Shown: positions 2,954 to 60,856 of the stretch, piece after piece
Layout: every line of letters begins with the position of its first letter
Numbering within the stretch: the stretch's first letter is position 1
Assembly (NCBI GenBank): GCA_947650915.1
Contig: CANSWY010000009.1
Location: forward strand, 1-63,217
From: an uncultured Eggerthellaceae bacterium
GTDB taxonomy: Bacteria; Actinomycetota; Coriobacteriia; Coriobacteriales; Eggerthellaceae
Reading direction: 5' to 3'
DNA length: 63,217 nt
Made by a program: the position numbers and the translations under genes
Notes under the pieces: model-generated
The model's database searches: none
Seen by the model: the letters and a program-made list of their open reading frames with translations, nothing else
What the model was told of the DNA's origin: nothing

Positions 2954-2983
2954 AACGGCCCTCCTTCGGGAGGGCCGTTTTTC
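2954..2983 (+). terminator. Intrinsic terminator after the cold-shock gene
   Basis: AACGGCCCTCC, TTCG tetraloop, GGAGGGCCGTT, then a T run. A perfect 11-bp stem. It also sits at the 3' end of the convergent TetR gene and may serve both strands. Confidence 0.9.
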
Positions 2984-3641
2984 ATTGCACGGGCTGCATG
3001 CCGTCGAACAGGGGGTCGGAAACGGCGCCTGGTGAGTTGGCGCTCAGCAGCGTATCCAGGAGCAGCGGAAAGCTGTCGTCGGACGGTGTGTTGAGAAGCT
3101 TGTAGAGCCTGCGCGGCACGGCGTCATCCAGATAACGGCAGAGCGTCTGCACGTCGTAAGGCATGCCCGCTTTGAACCAGTGGGTGACTCCTCCTACTTC
3201 GGCATCAGCGAGCGCGATGATCTGGAACTCGAGCTCCTCATCGATATCTTGACGCTTGTATTCCACGATGGTCTCTCGCAGCGTTTCTATTCTGCGCCGT
3301 TTCGCGTGGGAAAAAAGGGATTGATACCCGTCCATATCGAAAGACCAACGATAGAGCGTCTTGTGCTGTGCGAATGCTGTGGTGTTCAGGAAGTTCGATT
3401 GGAACCAGTTCAGCGTTCTCCCCGTCTGAAAAAGGTATTTCTCAGCGATCAGATTGTAGTGCCATTGGCTTATGTCGTACTTGTCCTTGAAGTGATAGTA
3501 GAACGTTGAACGTGCGATGCCTGCGCTGCGACAGATCTGTCCAACAGATATCTCGTCAAAGCGATATTGGCCGAGAAGCTTCTCGTAGGCGTTGACGACA
3601 GAGATCTGGGTTGCATAGCCATTTGGGATCATTCGTGCCAT
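2982..3641 (-). CDS. TetR/AcrR-type transcriptional regulator
   Basis: 219 aa with an N-terminal TetR helix-turn-helix at residues 30-53 (ISVGQICRSAGIARSTFYYHF) and a divergent ligand/dimer domain. The ATG at 3641 has a GAGGAGA Shine-Dalgarno 8 nt upstream; the open frame runs further upstream to 3827 through the intergenic region, but that part is not protein-like. It diverges from the molybdopterin-enzyme operon across a 262-nt spacer with an inverted repeat, the classical arrangement for a local substrate-responsive regulator of the adjacent operon (inference). The inducer is unknown. Confidence 0.9.
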   Translation of the reverse strand: MARMIPNGYATQISVVNAYEKLLGQYRFDEISVGQICRSAGIARSTFYYHFKDKYDISQWHYNLIAEKYLFQTGRTLNWFQSNFLNTTAFAQHKTLYRWSFDMDGYQSLFSHAKRRRIETLRETIVEYKRQDIDEELEFQIIALADAEVGGVTHWFKAGMPYDVQTLCRYLDDAVPRRLYKLLNTPSDDSFPLLLDTLLSANSPGAVSDPLFDGMQPVQ

Positions 3642-3680
3642 ACATCCGTCTCCTCGCGAAGCATCGGTAGACGCGCTCAA

Positions 3681-3719
3681 GTATACAACCGGTTCTCTGC
3701 TATAGGGCCGGTTCGTACA
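3681..3719. promoter_or_regulatory. Candidate operator between the regulator and the molybdopterin operon
   Basis: TACAACCGG and CCGGTTCGTA form an imperfect inverted repeat around a TATAGG-like -10 element, 40 nt upstream of the regulator start. Position and symmetry suit TetR-type control of both divergent units. Confidence 0.5.
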
Positions 3720-3808
3720 TTTTGATGCGAATGTCTGAGCGGTCCTGTCAAAGAGGGAACCTTGTCTGTTCCCCTCATCTGAGCATGCGCGTACTTTTGA
3801 ATCCAGGG

Positions 3809-3833
3809 AGTTCCATGCGGTCGGCATGGAACG
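3809..3833 (+). other. Leader hairpin upstream of the molybdopterin operon
   Basis: GTTCCATGC and GCATGGAAC form a 9-bp stem in the presumed 5' leader. There is no T tract. Function unknown; it could modulate mRNA stability or attenuation. Confidence 0.4.
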
Positions 3834-3903
3834 AATGGCAGGCGAAGGCGGGTTTTCTGTCCTCCAGTGCTTTCGCCGAGCGGACCGAAAGGAGTGAGGT
3901 GTG

Positions 3904-6357
3904 ATGGCCGATCATGGAGTGGAGGGGTATAACAACAGCGGTGTGTCCACACAGCTTGTTGGCGACTTCATCGAAGTCCCTCATGAGCGCCCATGGCGTT
4001 ATGAGGAAGATGGGCTCACCGTCACAAGGGGGAGCGCCTGGTCGGGTCCTGGCTGTCATGACGGATGCGGCGTTCTGCTGTACACGGACGAAGATGGCAA
4101 GCTGGTGAAATGCGAGGGCGATCCGGAAAATCCGTACAACGGGGGCCGTCTGTGCGTTCGTTGCCTGGATGTGCCTGAGGTGACGTATCACAAAGACCGC
4201 TTGCTCTATCCCATGAAGCGCGATCCGAAGGACCGCGGCAAGGACAAATGGGAGCGCATCTCTTGGAATGAAGCCATCGATCTGGTGGCGGACACCTTCT
4301 TGGAGATCAAGGAGAAATACGGTGCGGAGTCGGTCGTGTTCGGCCAGGGCACGGGAAGGGACATCGCGGCATACATCACGCGTCTGTGCTGGTCGTTCGG
4401 ATCCCCCAACTACGTTCTGTTCCTCTCTGGTTGCGCGTGCTATCTGCCTCGTGTCGCAGGCATGGCGGCGACGGCTGGCTCGTTCTGGGTGGCTGATTGC
4501 TCGCAGCAGTTCGCCGACCGCTACGACAATCCGCAGTATCAGGTTCCGGAAACGATGTACATCTGGGGCAATTATCCGCTGCGGGCGAATTCCGATGGCT
4601 TCTATGGGCATTGGGTCATCGACTTGATGAAGCGCGGCATGGAAGTGGTCATGATCGACCCGAAGGTCACCTGGCTTTCGTCTCATGCCAAGCTGCATCT
4701 GGCCATTCGTCCGGGCACGGATGCTGCGCTCGCGCTCGGCTTCTTGAACGTCATCATCAATGAGGACCTCTATGATCACGACTTCGTTGAGCGGTGGACC
4801 TATGGGTTCGATCAGCTGAAAGAACGCGTGCAGGATTATCCCCCTGAGAAGGTTGCTGAGATCACGTGGATCCCGGAGGAGAAGATCGTCGCTGCTGCCC
4901 GTTTGCTGGCGAACAGCAAGCCGGCCACCATGCAGTGGGGCGTTGCGGTGGATATGACCAAGGAGGCCCTTCCTGCTTCACAGGCCATTGCAGCGTGCTT
5001 CCAGATCACCGGCAATGTGGATGTGCCCGGCGGCATCATCGCTCCTCCTGAGATCTTGAACTACGCAGGCGGCTGGGGACGCGAGCTCTGCCCGGAGGAG
5101 ACGTGGAAGAAGCGCATCGGCCTTGACATGTATCCGCTGCTCAACTTCGGTTTCCAGATCGCGCAACCCGATGAGCTCCGTCACACCATGGTCACTGGTG
5201 AACCGTACAAGATCCATGCAACGTGGCTGCAACAGAACAACACGTTGTCGTGCATGTCGGCTGACCCGCAAGAGACCTATGCAGGGTTGATGAACTGCGA
5301 TTTCAACGTGTCAGTGGACCTGTTCATGACCCCCACCATCATGGCCACCTCCGATGTGGTGCTTCCGGCGGCAACCTTCCCTGAGCGCAATGGCATCCGC
5401 TTGGGCGACGGCGTGCAGCGCGGTGAGGTCATCAACAAGGTGTGCCAGGTGGGCGAATGCAAATCCGACATGGAGATCAACCTGCTGGTGGGCAAGCGCT
5501 TCAACCCGGAAGCATGGCCGTGGGACACGGTGGACGAGATGTTCAGCGCCATGCTGGAAGCCCAGACGCCCTTCAGCTTCGAAGATGTGCGCGCCAACGG
5601 CCCCATCTATCTGCCGTTCAGCTACAAGCGCTATGAGACCGGGCGTCTGCGCGCGGATGGCCAACCCGGATTCGGCACGCCGACGGGGCGGATCGAGCTT
5701 TGGTCCACGTTCTACAACAGTGCGGGCATGGATCCTCTTCCGTACTTCGAGGAGCCCGTACCGGGACCCACCTCGACTCCTGAACTGCTTGACGAGTATC
5801 CCCTGGTGTTGACCACCGGTGCCCGTCCGTGGTCGCTCTTCCATTCGGAGCATCGTCAGGTCAAGCGCATGCGCAACCTGAAGAAGGAGGCCAACGTCTA
5901 CATGAATCCTGCCACGGCAGAGGAATACGGCCTGCAGGATGGCGATTGGGTCTGGATCGAGAACGTCTATGGGCGCTGCAAGTCCAAGGTGGAGATCACC
6001 AACATCTACCAGAATCCGAAGGTCATCGCATGCGACCACGCATGGTGGCACCCCGAGGGGGATCCTGAGGACCTGTATGAGACCCACGATCTGAACGTGA
6101 ACAATCTCCTCCCGGGCATCCCCGGCAAGGCAGGGTTCGGGTCGAACTACAAGACGACGCTGGTGAAGCTCTACAAGGTCACGCCTGAGGACGAGACCAA
6201 TGGCAGCTTCGTCACGGGCGAAGAAGGCGGCAAGTCCCAGGCGCTGGACGGGAAAGGCGTTGCGGCCATCCAGGCGCTGGTCGATCACCGCAATCAGCTC
6301 GTTGAGGATTGCAGGATCGTCAGGGAGGCCATCGAGGCCGCCGCGTCTGAGGAGTGA
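3904..6357 (+). CDS. Molybdopterin-dependent oxidoreductase, candidate phenolic dehydroxylase/transhydroxylase
   Basis: 817-aa catalytic subunit of the DMSO-reductase superfamily (bis-MGD molybdenum). The N-terminus carries a Fe-S-type motif with C51, C55 and C84 (C-x3-C-x28-C); the usual first Cys is replaced, although C70 and C87 lie nearby. The GCAC segment (C177/C179) lies where the protein ligand of Mo usually falls. The C-terminal MopB domain follows from about residue 620 (TTGARPWSLFHSEHRQ). There is no twin-arginine signal, so it should be cytoplasmic. AAGGAG precedes a GTG at 3901 and ATG at 3904; the ATG was taken. The compact form, the bis-[4Fe-4S] partner and the MFS neighbour recall the acetylene-hydratase / catechol-dehydroxylase / phenol-transhydroxylase branch of gut Eggerthellaceae (family knowledge). 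Substrate is not assignable. Confidence 0.85.
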   Translation: MADHGVEGYNNSGVSTQLVGDFIEVPHERPWRYEEDGLTVTRGSAWSGPGCHDGCGVLLYTDEDGKLVKCEGDPENPYNGGRLCVRCLDVPEVTYHKDRLLYPMKRDPKDRGKDKWERISWNEAIDLVADTFLEIKEKYGAESVVFGQGTGRDIAAYITRLCWSFGSPNYVLFLSGCACYLPRVAGMAATAGSFWVADCSQQFADRYDNPQYQVPETMYIWGNYPLRANSDGFYGHWVIDLMKRGMEVVMIDPKVTWLSSHAKLHLAIRPGTDAALALGFLNVIINEDLYDHDFVERWTYGFDQLKERVQDYPPEKVAEITWIPEEKIVAAARLLANSKPATMQWGVAVDMTKEALPASQAIAACFQITGNVDVPGGIIAPPEILNYAGGWGRELCPEETWKKRIGLDMYPLLNFGFQIAQPDELRHTMVTGEPYKIHATWLQQNNTLSCMSADPQETYAGLMNCDFNVSVDLFMTPTIMATSDVVLPAATFPERNGIRLGDGVQRGEVINKVCQVGECKSDMEINLLVGKRFNPEAWPWDTVDEMFSAMLEAQTPFSFEDVRANGPIYLPFSYKRYETGRLRADGQPGFGTPTGRIELWSTFYNSAGMDPLPYFEEPVPGPTSTPELLDEYPLVLTTGARPWSLFHSEHRQVKRMRNLKKEANVYMNPATAEEYGLQDGDWVWIENVYGRCKSKVEITNIYQNPKVIACDHAWWHPEGDPEDLYETHDLNVNNLLPGIPGKAGFGSNYKTTLVKLYKVTPEDETNGSFVTGEEGGKSQALDGKGVAAIQALVDHRNQLVEDCRIVREAIEAAASEE

Positions 6358-6445
6358 CGCTCGCTTTCCCTGGACCTATCGGGCAATGCAATGAGACATC
6401 GGCATGGGTGCGTGCGCCCATGCCGGGAAGATTGAGAGGTGTGCA

Positions 6446-6823
6446 ATGCAAACAGCAACAGAGCTGAACGCTCGGACGCAGGCGAAGTACGGATTGCTGG
6501 TCGACTATCAGTGGTGCACGGGGTGCCATTCATGTGAGATCGCGTGCCAGATGGAGCATCAGCTCCCCGTCGGGCAGTCGGGCATCCTCGTCCACGACAT
6601 GGGGCACTGGCCTTTGGAAGAGGGCGGTGATGAATGGCAGTTCGGCTATCTGCCTGCACCGAACAGCGTGTGCGACACCTGCGCCCATCGCCGTTCCCTG
6701 GGCAAGGTGCCCACGTGCGTGCAGCACTGCCAGGCCCAGTGCCTCACATTCGGCCCCATCGATGAGATGGCAGAAAAGGCGAAAGAGCACAAGGACAACG
6801 TTCTGTTCGCGCTAGGTGAGTAG
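6446..6823 (+). CDS. Bis-[4Fe-4S] electron-transfer protein (small subunit)
   Basis: 125 aa. Two cluster-binding sets are visible: C24-x2-C27-x2-C30-x3-C34 and C76-x2-C79-x11-C91-x3-C95, with an extra C99. It resembles the N-terminal half of iron-sulfur beta subunits of molybdopterin enzymes but is shortened to two clusters and lacks a membrane anchor or signal. It probably carries electrons to the molybdenum enzyme encoded 88 nt upstream. The start at 6446 is supported by GAGAGG 6 nt upstream; an in-frame ATG at 6404 has no such site. Confidence 0.9.
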   Translation: MQTATELNARTQAKYGLLVDYQWCTGCHSCEIACQMEHQLPVGQSGILVHDMGHWPLEEGGDEWQFGYLPAPNSVCDTCAHRRSLGKVPTCVQHCQAQCLTFGPIDEMAEKAKEHKDNVLFALGE

Positions 6824-6826
6824 ACG

Positions 6827-6850
6827 GACGCGCCCTTCGAGCGCGTCCTC
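6827..6850 (+). other. Intercistronic hairpin
   Basis: GGACGCG and CGCGTCC pair around an about 8-nt loop right after the bis-[4Fe-4S] gene stop. Without a T tract it is more likely an mRNA-stabilising or partially terminating structure that separates expression of the enzyme genes from the transporter gene. Confidence 0.4.
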
Positions 6851-6951
6851 TTGGCAGAGATTTCTTCAAAAATGCGGTCCGCGATACCGGATCCGGCGGG
6901 ACTTATCAAGGCCGGGAGACCGGGCGGACGCTCGATCAGATGGAGGCATTC

Positions 6952-8301
6952 ATGAAGATACAGAAATGGGGAGTGGAAGATCGCCAGCTCACTCCCCGGG
7001 AGCGATGGATCACGTTTTCCGTCATTCTCCTGGTCGCGGTTCTGGCTGCCCTCAATATGTTCAAGGCGTCCCCTGCGATACAGTACATCGCCAGTGACAT
7101 TGAGATGCCGAAGAACATGATCTCCCAGATCATGGGGTCTTACTCCATCCCTGCGGTCATCTTCGCGTATGTGGGGATGTGGTTCGGGCAGAAGCTGGGA
7201 TTCAAGCTTTCCACGCTCGTTTCGGTGCTGCTGATGGCGGGCGGTACGGTGATGTGCCTGCTCGTCACCGACCCTGATCTTTTCTTGGCGGGCAGGATCT
7301 TCGAAGGCTGCGGGTATGGCATCATCGCGGTGATCGGTCCTAACGCGATTCCGCGCATCTTTCCACAGAAGAACATCCCCCTTTCCATGGGCATCTGGTC
7401 TCAGTGGATCACGTTCGGCACAGTGGTGTCTTTCATTTTCGCACCGATGTTGTTCAGCTTGGGCGGTGGCATAGAGGTGCCGTTCTCGTGGCATGCCATC
7501 TGGGTCGCTGCTGTCGTCTTGGAGGTCGTCATCGCGGTCTTGGTCGTTGTCTTCTTGAAGATGCCTGCGGTGGGTGAGAATACCATCGTTGGCGGTGACG
7601 TCACCAAGAAGCTCATCAAGGGAAAGAACTTCATGGGGAGCGCTATCGTGGTCTCAGTGGCGTTCGTGGTGTTCGCTTATCTGAACGTGGTGGCATTCAA
7701 CACCATGTATCCTTCGTACTTGCAGCAAGTCAAGGGTCTTGATGTGTCGCTCTCTTCTTGGATGACCATGATCGCATCCATTCTTGGCGCCATCATCGGC
7801 ATCTTCTGCGGCGTCATCGCAGCGAAGAGGCACTGGCGGAAGGCGTTCATCGTGATCGGCTACGCCGTGTGGGCAGTGATCGCGTTCTTCTGCCTTTGGA
7901 CTCCAGGCACTGACATGGTGGGACCGTGGATCGGCATCATCATCTACGGCATTCCGCTGGGTTTCGTTCCCACGTGCACCCGTGCCATCATTCCTCGGCT
8001 CGTCGTTGACCCCAAGAAGCTCGACTTCGCGCTATCCACCATGGGCTTCCTCATGGCATTGGGCAAAGTGCTGGGCGGTTACTTCGTTTCGCCATCCATC
8101 ATCGAATTCGGCTATACGGGCATGGCGCAGTTCACGCTCGCTCCGATGTGCGTGCTCGCTGCTCTGTTGGTCGTCTTCTTCGTGAAGGGTGACAAAGCCC
8201 TTGATGAGCTGCGCGATCAGGAGACGCGCGAGTCCCTGGCAATCGATGCGGAGAGCAGTGCTGGTGAAGAGGATGCTCGGGCAGACGTTGAGCGCGGATG
8301 A
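6952..8301 (+). CDS. MFS transporter, probable aromatic-acid or phenolic carrier
   Basis: 449 aa with about 12 hydrophobic segments in two sets of six and a charged central loop (GGDVTKKLIKGKN) near residue 215, the major facilitator architecture. It should sit in the cytoplasmic membrane and move a small solute, probably with protons. The start at 6952 has GGAGG 5 nt upstream; an ATG 12 nt earlier has no usable ribosome site. Gene order enzyme, electron carrier, transporter, decarboxylase suggests uptake of the operon's substrate or exchange for its product (inference). Confidence 0.88.
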   Translation: MKIQKWGVEDRQLTPRERWITFSVILLVAVLAALNMFKASPAIQYIASDIEMPKNMISQIMGSYSIPAVIFAYVGMWFGQKLGFKLSTLVSVLLMAGGTVMCLLVTDPDLFLAGRIFEGCGYGIIAVIGPNAIPRIFPQKNIPLSMGIWSQWITFGTVVSFIFAPMLFSLGGGIEVPFSWHAIWVAAVVLEVVIAVLVVVFLKMPAVGENTIVGGDVTKKLIKGKNFMGSAIVVSVAFVVFAYLNVVAFNTMYPSYLQQVKGLDVSLSSWMTMIASILGAIIGIFCGVIAAKRHWRKAFIVIGYAVWAVIAFFCLWTPGTDMVGPWIGIIIYGIPLGFVPTCTRAIIPRLVVDPKKLDFALSTMGFLMALGKVLGGYFVSPSIIEFGYTGMAQFTLAPMCVLAALLVVFFVKGDKALDELRDQETRESLAIDAESSAGEEDARADVERG

Positions 8302-8351
8302 GGATGTGCGCAGACACGGTTCGAGCCATGTATCGAATGAAGGAGAATGAC

Positions 8352-9353
8352 ATGAAGAAGATCGACCTCGAGAATCACTTTTACAATGACTATTCCGTTC
8401 AAGTGCTCAAAGGACGCGAAGGCAACGGATATCCCTGGTGGGATGCCAAGAGCGATGCTGTGTGGTTCATGGAACAGGTCTCTATGGATCATACGGTCCT
8501 CGGTCCGAAACTGTGCGATTTCGCCGAGAAGCGCATTCCGGAGATGGAGGCGCTTGAGATCGAGAAGGCGGTCATATCGTTGGCCCCTGGCATCGATATC
8601 CTTCCGGCTCAGGAATCCGTTGACGCGTGCAGACGAGCGAATGACGCGCTCTATGAGCTGGCGCAGCGTTATCCGCGTCTGTTGGGATCCGCCATCTTGC
8701 CCATGTTCGACGCGGATGCGGCCGTGCGCGAACTGGAACGCTGCGTGAAGGATCTGGGCTTTGTCATGTGGCAGGCTCACTCCAACATTTCAGGACGTCA
8801 TCATGATGAGGAGCAGTTCCGTCCGATCTGGCGGAAAGTGGAAGAGTTGGGCATCTTCGCGTATCTGCACCCCAACTACAATCCCCTGAACGATATGTTC
8901 AATGACTATGGCTATCCTATGGCCGGGCCAGGCCTCGGCTTCACTGCGGATACCTCTGGTGCCATCATCCGCATCATGCTCTCGGGCATGCTCGATGAAA
9001 TGCCGGAGCTCAAGATCATGCTCGGCCATTACGGCGAGGCGTTGCCGTTCCTCATGGAACGACTGGACAATCGCATGGCCATGCTGCCGGAACCTAAGCA
9101 GCACAACGCTGAAAAGCCCAGTTTCTACTTCGGGCGCAACATCATGGTGACCACTTCGGGCAACACGTCCATTCCGGCGTTCGAGTGCACGCGTGCCGCG
9201 ATCGGAATGGACAGCATCTTCCTGGGGACCGACTACCCGTTCGAGTCCATGACGGAATGCATCGAGTATCTTGAGCGCTGCCCGATGTCCCAGCTCGACC
9301 GGGAGAAGCTGTATCACAAGAACGCAGAGTCGCGATTGGGCATCAAGCTGTAG
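8352..9353 (+). CDS. Amidohydrolase-2 family metal enzyme, gamma-resorcylate-decarboxylase-like
   Basis: 333 aa, one TIM-barrel metal-dependent hydrolase domain (Amidohydro_2). Residues match in order those of the hydroxybenzoate decarboxylases: E7-x-H9 (LENHF), H173 (AYLHP), H226 (LGHYGEALPF) and D294 (GTDYPFE). In gamma-resorcylate (2,6-dihydroxybenzoate) decarboxylase the equivalents bind the metal and catalyse non-oxidative loss of CO2 from a phenolic acid. AAGGAG 7 nt before the ATG at 8352 fixes the start; the frame opens at 8298, inside the transporter gene. In this operon it may decarboxylate the imported acid before, or after, the molybdenum step. Hydrolase activity on another substrate cannot be excluded. 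Confidence 0.88.
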   Translation: MKKIDLENHFYNDYSVQVLKGREGNGYPWWDAKSDAVWFMEQVSMDHTVLGPKLCDFAEKRIPEMEALEIEKAVISLAPGIDILPAQESVDACRRANDALYELAQRYPRLLGSAILPMFDADAAVRELERCVKDLGFVMWQAHSNISGRHHDEEQFRPIWRKVEELGIFAYLHPNYNPLNDMFNDYGYPMAGPGLGFTADTSGAIIRIMLSGMLDEMPELKIMLGHYGEALPFLMERLDNRMAMLPEPKQHNAEKPSFYFGRNIMVTTSGNTSIPAFECTRAAIGMDSIFLGTDYPFESMTECIEYLERCPMSQLDREKLYHKNAESRLGIKL

Positions 9354-9412
9354 GAAAAGCGACGGCATCGAAGAAGGTGCGTTGCTGGCGCTAGTGGAGA
9401 ACGGGAGCTGCG

Positions 9413-9622
9413 ATGTGCGGGTATGCATGCGTCAATTGCGGGAAATGCAAAGGCGAGGTGCGTCCTTTGATGCTCGCGGGCATGTGTCCGATCTGCAACA
9501 CCGTCAATGGTGCAAGCGCTTCATCGTGCTCATCCTGTGGCGCAGAGCTGCCCCGTGTTCCCGGCATGGCTGCTGAGGCGGATCCGCCTCAGCGCACCTT
9601 CTTATCCCCCGATGCTCCTTGA
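9413..9622 (+). CDS. Small Cys-rich (zinc-ribbon or rubredoxin-like) protein
   Basis: 69 aa with eight cysteines: C2, C6, C9, C12 near the N-terminus, then a CPIC pair and a CSSC pair. The pairs fit two metal knuckles of zinc-ribbon or rubredoxin type. GGGAG 5 nt before the ATG supports translation. It closes the molybdopterin operon and is followed by a terminator. It could be a metallochaperone, an electron carrier or a stability factor; no function is assigned. Confidence 0.7.
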   Translation: MCGYACVNCGKCKGEVRPLMLAGMCPICNTVNGASASSCSSCGAELPRVPGMAAEADPPQRTFLSPDAP

Positions 9623-9653
9623 ATGAGACACCCCCTATCCCCCTTTCTCGTGT

Positions 9654-9681
9654 GCCGGATCACTGCATCAAGTGATCCGGC
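9654..9681. terminator. Bidirectional terminator between the molybdopterin operon and queA
   Basis: GCCGGATCACT, loop GCATCA, AGTGATCCGGC: a perfect 11-bp stem followed by a T-rich tail. It lies between convergent genes and can serve both. Confidence 0.8.
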
Positions 9682-10830: not shown

Positions 10831-11013
10831 ATGTGTGAAAGGGGCATCCCGAATCGCACCCGCGAGGTTGCCAGATGTGCAAAAGGGACGTCCCAAATTG
10901 CACATAGGGTCAGTCTTTCAGTGCCGATTCTCTTTTCCTATGTGCAATTTGGAACGTCCCTTTTGCACATCAGACAGCCCCCTGTGCAATTTGGAACGTC
11001 CCTTTTGCACATC
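10831..11013 (+). repeat. Family A repeat cluster between queH and queA
   Basis: A degenerate left half-unit (10831-10873), a complete hairpin (10874-10971, arms 10874-10908 and 10937-10971, 28-nt loop) and a solo right arm (10982-11013). Left core is GGGACGTCCC, right core GGAACGTCCC. Confidence 0.95.
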
Positions 11014-60347: not shown

Positions 60348-60407
60348 CTTCGGCGCACAAAGGATGTGCAAAAGGGACGTCCCAAATTGCACCCGTGAGA
60401 TTGCCCT

Positions 60408-60505
60408 GATGTGCAAAAGGGACGTCCCAAATTGCACATAGGATCAGTCTTCCAGTGCTCGATCTCTTTCCCTATGTGCAATTTGGAACGTCCCTTTTGC
60501 ATATC
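60408..60505 (+). repeat. Family A hairpin (complete)
   Basis: 98 bp preceded by one 45-bp left unit; the right arm ends GCATATC instead of GCACATC. Confidence 0.95.
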
Positions 60506-60759
60506 AGGAAGCCTATTCGCGCAGGGGCGCCTGCCGGCGGGTATGTGCCATGACCTTCGCCTTCGGCTCCAGTCATGTCGCGGTGCTGTCGCACCGCTGC
60601 TTTCGCAAGCGGGCTTCAACGCGCTCCGCGCGTAGCGCCCTTGCTCCAAACGCATCATCAATTCCGATAGATGTGCAAAAGGGACGCCCCAAATTGCACC
60701 CGTGAGGTTGCCCTGATGTGCAAAAGGGACGTCCCAAATTGCACCCGTGAGGTTGCTCT

Positions 60760-60856
60760 GATGTGCAAAAGGGACGTCCCAAATTGCACATAGGGTCAGT
60801 CTCCAGTGCTCGATCTCGTTTCCTATGTGCAATTTGGAACGTCCCTTTTGCACATC
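60760..60856 (+). repeat. Family A hairpin upstream of truA
   Basis: 97 bp preceded by two 45-bp left units. It ends 3 nt before the truA -10 box, so the -35 region lies inside the repeat. Confidence 0.95.

Follow-up and report, generated by a model that had tools for sequence, protein, structure and literature searches.

Here we characterise, in a window of 63,217 nucleotides from an uncultured gut Eggerthellaceae bacterium (the whole stretch of DNA analysed), a putative operon whose gene content suggests, without proof, that a phenolic acid is broken down anaerobically in two steps. We put at about even the chances that this is an accessory catabolic operon through which a phenolic acid would be decarboxylated and then reductively dehydroxylated by a molybdenum enzyme. 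Computation supports the classes of the two enzymes, a conserved core composed of the molybdenum enzyme, an iron-sulfur protein and a cysteine-rich mini-protein, and a Bacillota origin for the decarboxylase. Functional assignments throughout are drawn from homology and gene order.

Five co-directional plus-strand genes, separated by short gaps, encode in order the molybdenum enzyme, the iron-sulfur protein, a major facilitator superfamily (MFS) carrier, the decarboxylase and the mini-protein, with a TetR-family gene diverging from them. This gene set is the one named in the original prediction, and all of its members were confirmed by open reading frames and Pfam matches, including the regulator, which lies outside the interval (3681-9681) assigned to the operon at that time. 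Likely starts (molybdenum enzyme 3904, iron-sulfur protein 6446, MFS carrier 6952, decarboxylase 8352) were refined from the starts of homologs. The features are as follows.

2982 to 3641, minus strand: TetR-family regulator (PF00440, TetR_N, E = 2.9e-07); divergent relatives of 60-78% identity stand beside the orthologous molybdenum-enzyme gene at three of seven ortholog loci (L153, L154, L155)
3641, minus strand: probable ATG start of the regulator, from homolog starts (first in-frame ATG at 3827)
3642 to 3903, no strand: divergent intergenic region, presumed promoter/operator (sequence and comparison with relatives)
3904 to 6357, plus strand: bis-MGD molybdenum catalytic subunit, predicted to be of the Gordonibacter-type catechol-dehydroxylase class (Pfam, best PDB match, orthologs at 86-93%, tree, Cys180)
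3904, plus strand: likely ATG start of the molybdenum subunit, from homolog starts (alternative GTG at 3901)
6446 to 6823, plus strand: small ferredoxin-like subunit, presumed electron donor to the molybdenum subunit (eight cysteines in two groups of four, plus one; orthologs)
6952 to 8301, plus strand: MFS carrier (MFS_1, 2e-36; nearest relatives 43-48% identical)
8352 to 9353, plus strand: predicted Amidohydrolase-2 decarboxylase of a gamma-resorcylate-decarboxylase-like subfamily, of probable gut-Clostridia ancestry (Amidohydro_2, 4.8e-26; fold; tree)
9413 to 9622, plus strand: cysteine-rich mini-protein of 69 aa, with CGYACxNCGKCKG and a zinc-ribbon-like CPxC...CxxCG (profile search, gene context)
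9654 to 9681, plus strand: hairpin with an 11-bp stem and a weak T tract, a likely terminator (fold z -3.5)

The terminator originally proposed to close the operon is upheld in part: the hairpin is present, and its role is likely but not certain because the T tract is weak and terminator-like sites in the scan as a whole were no more numerous than in shuffled sequence. Within the divergent region (3642-3903) no sigma-70-like promoter was found above chance, and inspection by eye together with an inverted-repeat listing of four intergenic regions gave no convincing TetR operator common to the relatives. The GC content of the operon (0.54-0.61) is lower than that of the flanking aspS, queA and tgt genes (0.64-0.66). 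G074, the one further genome of the genus compared, has no ortholog of the molybdenum enzyme, its best match being 48% identical; the low GC and this absence are each consistent with an acquired or inserted unit, without proving one. Separately, aspS is followed by short, imperfect direct repeats 27 and 47 nt long (1977-2085), and a 26-bp repeat, TGCAATTTGGRACGTCCCTTTTGCAC, is found at 43 sites across the window between 28 and 63205 (e.g. 10877-10902, 10943-10968 and 60366-60853), mostly in pairs or clusters of opposite orientation at spacings of 44-66 bp, where none would be expected by chance; it looks like an intergenic repeat of the REP/BIME type.

The molybdenum enzyme (818 aa; Pfam Molybdopterin, Molydop_binding and Molybdop_Fe4S4) has no signal peptide or TAT signal apparent to the eye, and among solved structures it matches acetylene hydratase (2e7z, 307 bits) ahead of a thiosulfate reductase (183 bits). 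Acetylene hydratase is described in PMC7028382 as the closest characterised relative of the catechol dehydroxylases, whose Gordonibacter subtype is there said to be small, to lack a TAT signal and to adjoin genes for a small iron-sulfur protein and an MFS carrier; the size range (about 770-820 aa) and the gene context of this subtype are both found here. The enzyme is also ~45% identical to the molybdenum enzymes of putative ellagic-acid (eam) clusters, loci that were recognised by their published gene composition and not by named sequences. Orthologs of 86-93% identity were found in six genomes (G049, G066, G068, G115, G118 and G123), with a split copy in a seventh (G057). In a quick tree, built without named dehydroxylase reference sequences and carrying long-branch warnings elsewhere, the enzyme and these orthologs form a fully supported clade, which nests with eam-locus and other Eggerthellaceae enzymes in a larger supported clade, outside both clades of eam-locus enzymes. 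Placement among formate, nitrate or sulfur reductases, which had been named as contrary to the original prediction, did not appear; the enzyme groups with putative dehydroxylases. By way of the eam-like loci and the published acetylene hydratase relation, these comparisons support the prediction that it is a relative of the Gordonibacter-type catechol dehydroxylases. Across 63 relatives Cys180 and His53 do not vary; phmmer aligned the tungsten-ligand cysteine of acetylene hydratase with Cys178, and Cys180 is the putative molybdenum ligand, with a shift of two residues from that alignment.

Transhydroxylation by this enzyme (of the pyrogallol to phloroglucinol type) had been offered as a variant of the two-step route, and here the original proposal is not supported, since a transhydroxylase identity was rejected: pyrogallol hydroxytransferase (AthL) is not among the best 60 PDB matches, the nearest relatives are acetylene hydratase and the dehydroxylases, and genuine relatives of AthL reach 400 bits against pyrogallol hydroxytransferase. 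We regard this variant as highly improbable, even though AthL-like genes lie near four of five close-relative loci (L161-L164, not L160; 8-10 kb flanks) and the nearest relatives of the MFS carrier adjoin AthL-like (transhydroxylase-family) genes. The dehydroxylases at L161-L164 are 66-68% identical to the window enzyme and stand within 10 kb of AthL/AthS-like genes, neighbours that hint at small polyhydroxybenzene substrates. Five AthL-like genes with AthS-like partners were also observed elsewhere in the bacterium's own 2-Mb genome (L034, L038 and L101, on contigs C20, C28 and C11).

In all seven genomes the orthologous molybdenum-enzyme gene comes with genes for the iron-sulfur protein and the mini-protein, with iron-sulfur orthologs of ~80-88% identity at five loci (L129, L153-L155 and L158) and of ~70% at two others (L156 and L157). 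A profile search, used after a strict regular expression had given almost no matches, detected the mini-protein in 54 of 138 Eggerthellaceae genomes with up to 10 copies per genome, an upper estimate of the genome count, as the weakest matches are to larger proteins and span their zinc-ribbon half only. Among the best 30 mini-protein loci, 22 have molybdenum-enzyme and/or iron-sulfur relatives within ~1.5 kb, a figure given without a formal background rate and excluding the window locus, where the MFS and decarboxylase genes intervene. The AlphaFold model is poor (pLDDT 64) and we claim no fold for it; the portions of the dehydroxylase literature searched by term and section contain no mention of such a protein. 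From its recurrence beside these genes, the mini-protein is a real family and appears to be a conserved accessory of this dehydroxylase group.

Both by sequence and by fold (predicted structure, pLDDT 91), the best PDB match of the amidohydrolase is 2dvt, a 2,6-dihydroxybenzoate (gamma-resorcylate) decarboxylase, and the metal and catalytic residues E7-x-H9, H173, H226, E229 and D294 show no variation across 27 relatives. The likeness to gamma-resorcylate decarboxylase and the complete set of decarboxylase-type residues, both noted originally, are thereby borne out, with the refinement that the protein belongs to a separate subfamily: identity with a canonical gamma-resorcylate decarboxylase was rejected on its placement in a separate supported clade from 2dvt. 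The fold and catalytic set are those of phenolic-acid decarboxylases, the activity predicted for this protein. Its closest relatives (60-63%) come from Clostridiales SIG263, Eubacterium ramulus and an uncultured Oscillospiraceae bacterium; a careful tree places it within a clade of Bacillota sequences (100/100 for four rows), apart from that of 2dvt, and a grouping with actinobacterial relatives was rejected (p-AU 9e-6, an optimistic value, the group having been defined once the tree was known). No comparable copy was found in the 138 Eggerthellaceae genomes besides that of the window, five genomes having relatives at 34-35%. Horizontal acquisition from gut Clostridia is the simplest reading of this pattern. 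A phenolic substrate is further supported because decarboxylase relatives adjoin, in Clostridium thailandense (L175), an AAHS-type aromatic-acid symporter (TIGR00895, 349.8 bits, below the cut-off of 418.55) and, in a Lachnospiraceae bacterium (L176), a DAPG/phloretin-hydrolase-type gene. In E. ramulus the neighbour of the relative is a sodium symporter rather than a dehydroxylase.

The coupling of the two enzymes, as we infer it, rests on one genome, and it is the weak point of the proposal because the pairing occurs once. This decarboxylase is absent from the ortholog loci of all seven genomes having the orthologous molybdenum enzyme, and at 80 named decarboxylase loci no dehydroxylase was found beside the decarboxylase, apart from a weak molybdenum-enzyme match (26%) in L201. 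These orthologous operons lacking the decarboxylase lend some weight to a passenger role, in which the core would dehydroxylate one catechol as in the orthologs while the carrier and decarboxylase handled a different phenolic acid and shared only the promoter. The carrier, moreover, is not an ortholog of theirs (40-41% identity, against 86-93% for the molybdenum enzyme), so that both genes may have been gained or replaced independently of the core. Set against this are the position of the decarboxylase inside the operon, co-directional and between the MFS and mini-protein genes, the action of both enzyme classes on phenolics, and a functional precedent for the pairing; we judge a passenger role to be a minority prospect, at perhaps one chance in four. 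The precedent is the eam cluster (PNAS 2025; PMC12771579), in which a dehydroxylase, an amidohydrolase-type decarboxylase and an MFS carrier act in sequence with the decarboxylase first, and sequential decarboxylation and dehydroxylation is plausible here because that cluster pairs them. Literature searches for a dehydroxylase paired with a resorcylate decarboxylase, controlled by TetR or accompanied by a zinc-ribbon protein brought nothing new.

The same precedent bears on the order of the two reactions, which in our reading is likewise inferred. Were a catechol carboxylic acid dehydroxylated by the molybdenum enzyme before the decarboxylase took the product, the substrate would resemble those of known dehydroxylases, which accept substituted catechols, phenolic acids like hydrocaffeic acid among them (PMC7028382). 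Decarboxylation comes first in the eam cluster, however, and the orthologs keep their dehydroxylase without this decarboxylase, which fits a dehydroxylase substrate needing no decarboxylation; we consider the reverse order unlikely. An unsubstituted catechol would nonetheless be an unusual substrate, because the enzymes characterised to date remove the para hydroxyl from substituted catechols (PMC11887054).

In the preferred route, decarboxylation before dehydroxylation, a phenolic ligand would relieve the TetR regulator and release the divergent operon, and the MFS carrier would import a phenolic acid bearing vicinal hydroxyls. The metal-dependent amidohydrolase would decarboxylate it to a simple catechol or pyrogallol, from which the cytoplasmic molybdenum enzyme, drawing electrons from the iron-sulfur subunit, would reductively strip one hydroxyl, the phenol serving as electron acceptor; the mini-protein may aid this pair in electron transfer, maturation or metal handling. 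Our favoured guess for the substrate is a hydroxybenzoate with an ortho hydroxyl, e.g. 2,3-dihydroxy- or 2,3,4-trihydroxybenzoate, which draws on what is known of the reactions of gamma-resorcylate and 2,3-dihydroxybenzoate decarboxylases. The two-step route as first proposed is partly supported, in that both predicted enzyme classes are present.

Control by TetR, to judge from the position of the gene, would set this operon apart from a class in which the characterised members are controlled by membrane LuxR proteins (PMC9734109). Such a co-located LuxR of 10-12 transmembrane segments is common, not universal, in the class; none was found in the window (tblastn with the LuxR of L156 as query), while the orthologs at L156 and L157 (G066 and G068) have a LuxR-HTH protein as neighbour instead of TetR. 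Carrier and decarboxylase may each be interchangeable, possibly adapted to a new substrate. More broadly, and tentatively, the core may be joined in different genomes to different unmasking enzymes so that varied precursors funnel to one catechol, with the mini-protein as a general accessory; we hold this possible, if somewhat doubtful. Candidates for such enzymes are the Clostridia-derived decarboxylase here and, in G118 as well as (on partial sequence) G115 and G123, a methyltransferase-like protein of the URO-D family. A URO-D-family gene was observed 3' of the orthologous core at three loci (encoding 451 aa in L155 and fragmentary in L154 and L129), with pieces at both contig ends in L154, whose contig may be circular or broken at a repeat; taking this neighbour as a sign of demethylation was dropped, the family match being too general.

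To our knowledge, gut Actinobacteria hold dozens of catechol-dehydroxylase genes, most of them without a known substrate. The decarboxylase beside the molybdenum enzyme, with its recognisable ancestry, narrows that enzyme's substrate search to phenolic acids and offers a testable two-step route, and the mini-protein, if a true accessory of the enzyme class, could ease the known difficulty of producing such enzymes.

Compared with known systems, the operon is like the Gordonibacter-type dehydroxylases (Dodh, Cldh, Gp Hcdh and Eadh1-3) in its cytoplasmic bis-MGD subunit, small iron-sulfur protein and MFS carrier, and in lying nearest acetylene hydratase; in a comparison made without the sequences of the named enzymes, it differs in the separate clade of its enzyme, a divergent TetR in place of the usual membrane LuxR, and the added mini-protein. 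The decarboxylase shares its metal ligands and catalytic His/Glu with the gamma-resorcylate decarboxylases 2dvt and 3s4t, its best sequence and fold matches, but is 33% identical, falls in a separate supported subfamily and starts with DLENHF in place of LEEHF. Pyrogallol-phloroglucinol transhydroxylase AthLS is of the same superfamily as the molybdenum enzyme, also acts on polyphenols and has relatives elsewhere in this genome, whereas the window enzyme belongs to a different family. A further counterpart is the eam cluster (PMC12771579), where a dehydroxylase, iron-sulfur protein, amidohydrolase-type decarboxylase and MFS carrier form one inducible locus. Having the same kinds of genes, our operon might be thought to open and decarboxylate an ellagic-acid-type lactone as Eah does, with the molybdenum enzyme as Eadh, but this is very improbable: the putative Eah proteins are 25-29% identical to the decarboxylase, on which Eah orthology was rejected, and start with D-x-N-M-H against its E-x-H, and neither an Eah-type decarboxylase nor orthologs of Eadh1/2 were found at the operon, its molybdenum enzyme lying outside both eam clades. 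There is here a single dehydroxylase, a TetR where eam has LuxR, and a mini-protein that tblastn did not find in eam-like loci. The pairing of a dehydroxylase with a decarboxylase is already published for eam, and what appears to differ here, by comparison of sequences, is the decarboxylase subfamily and the TetR regulator.
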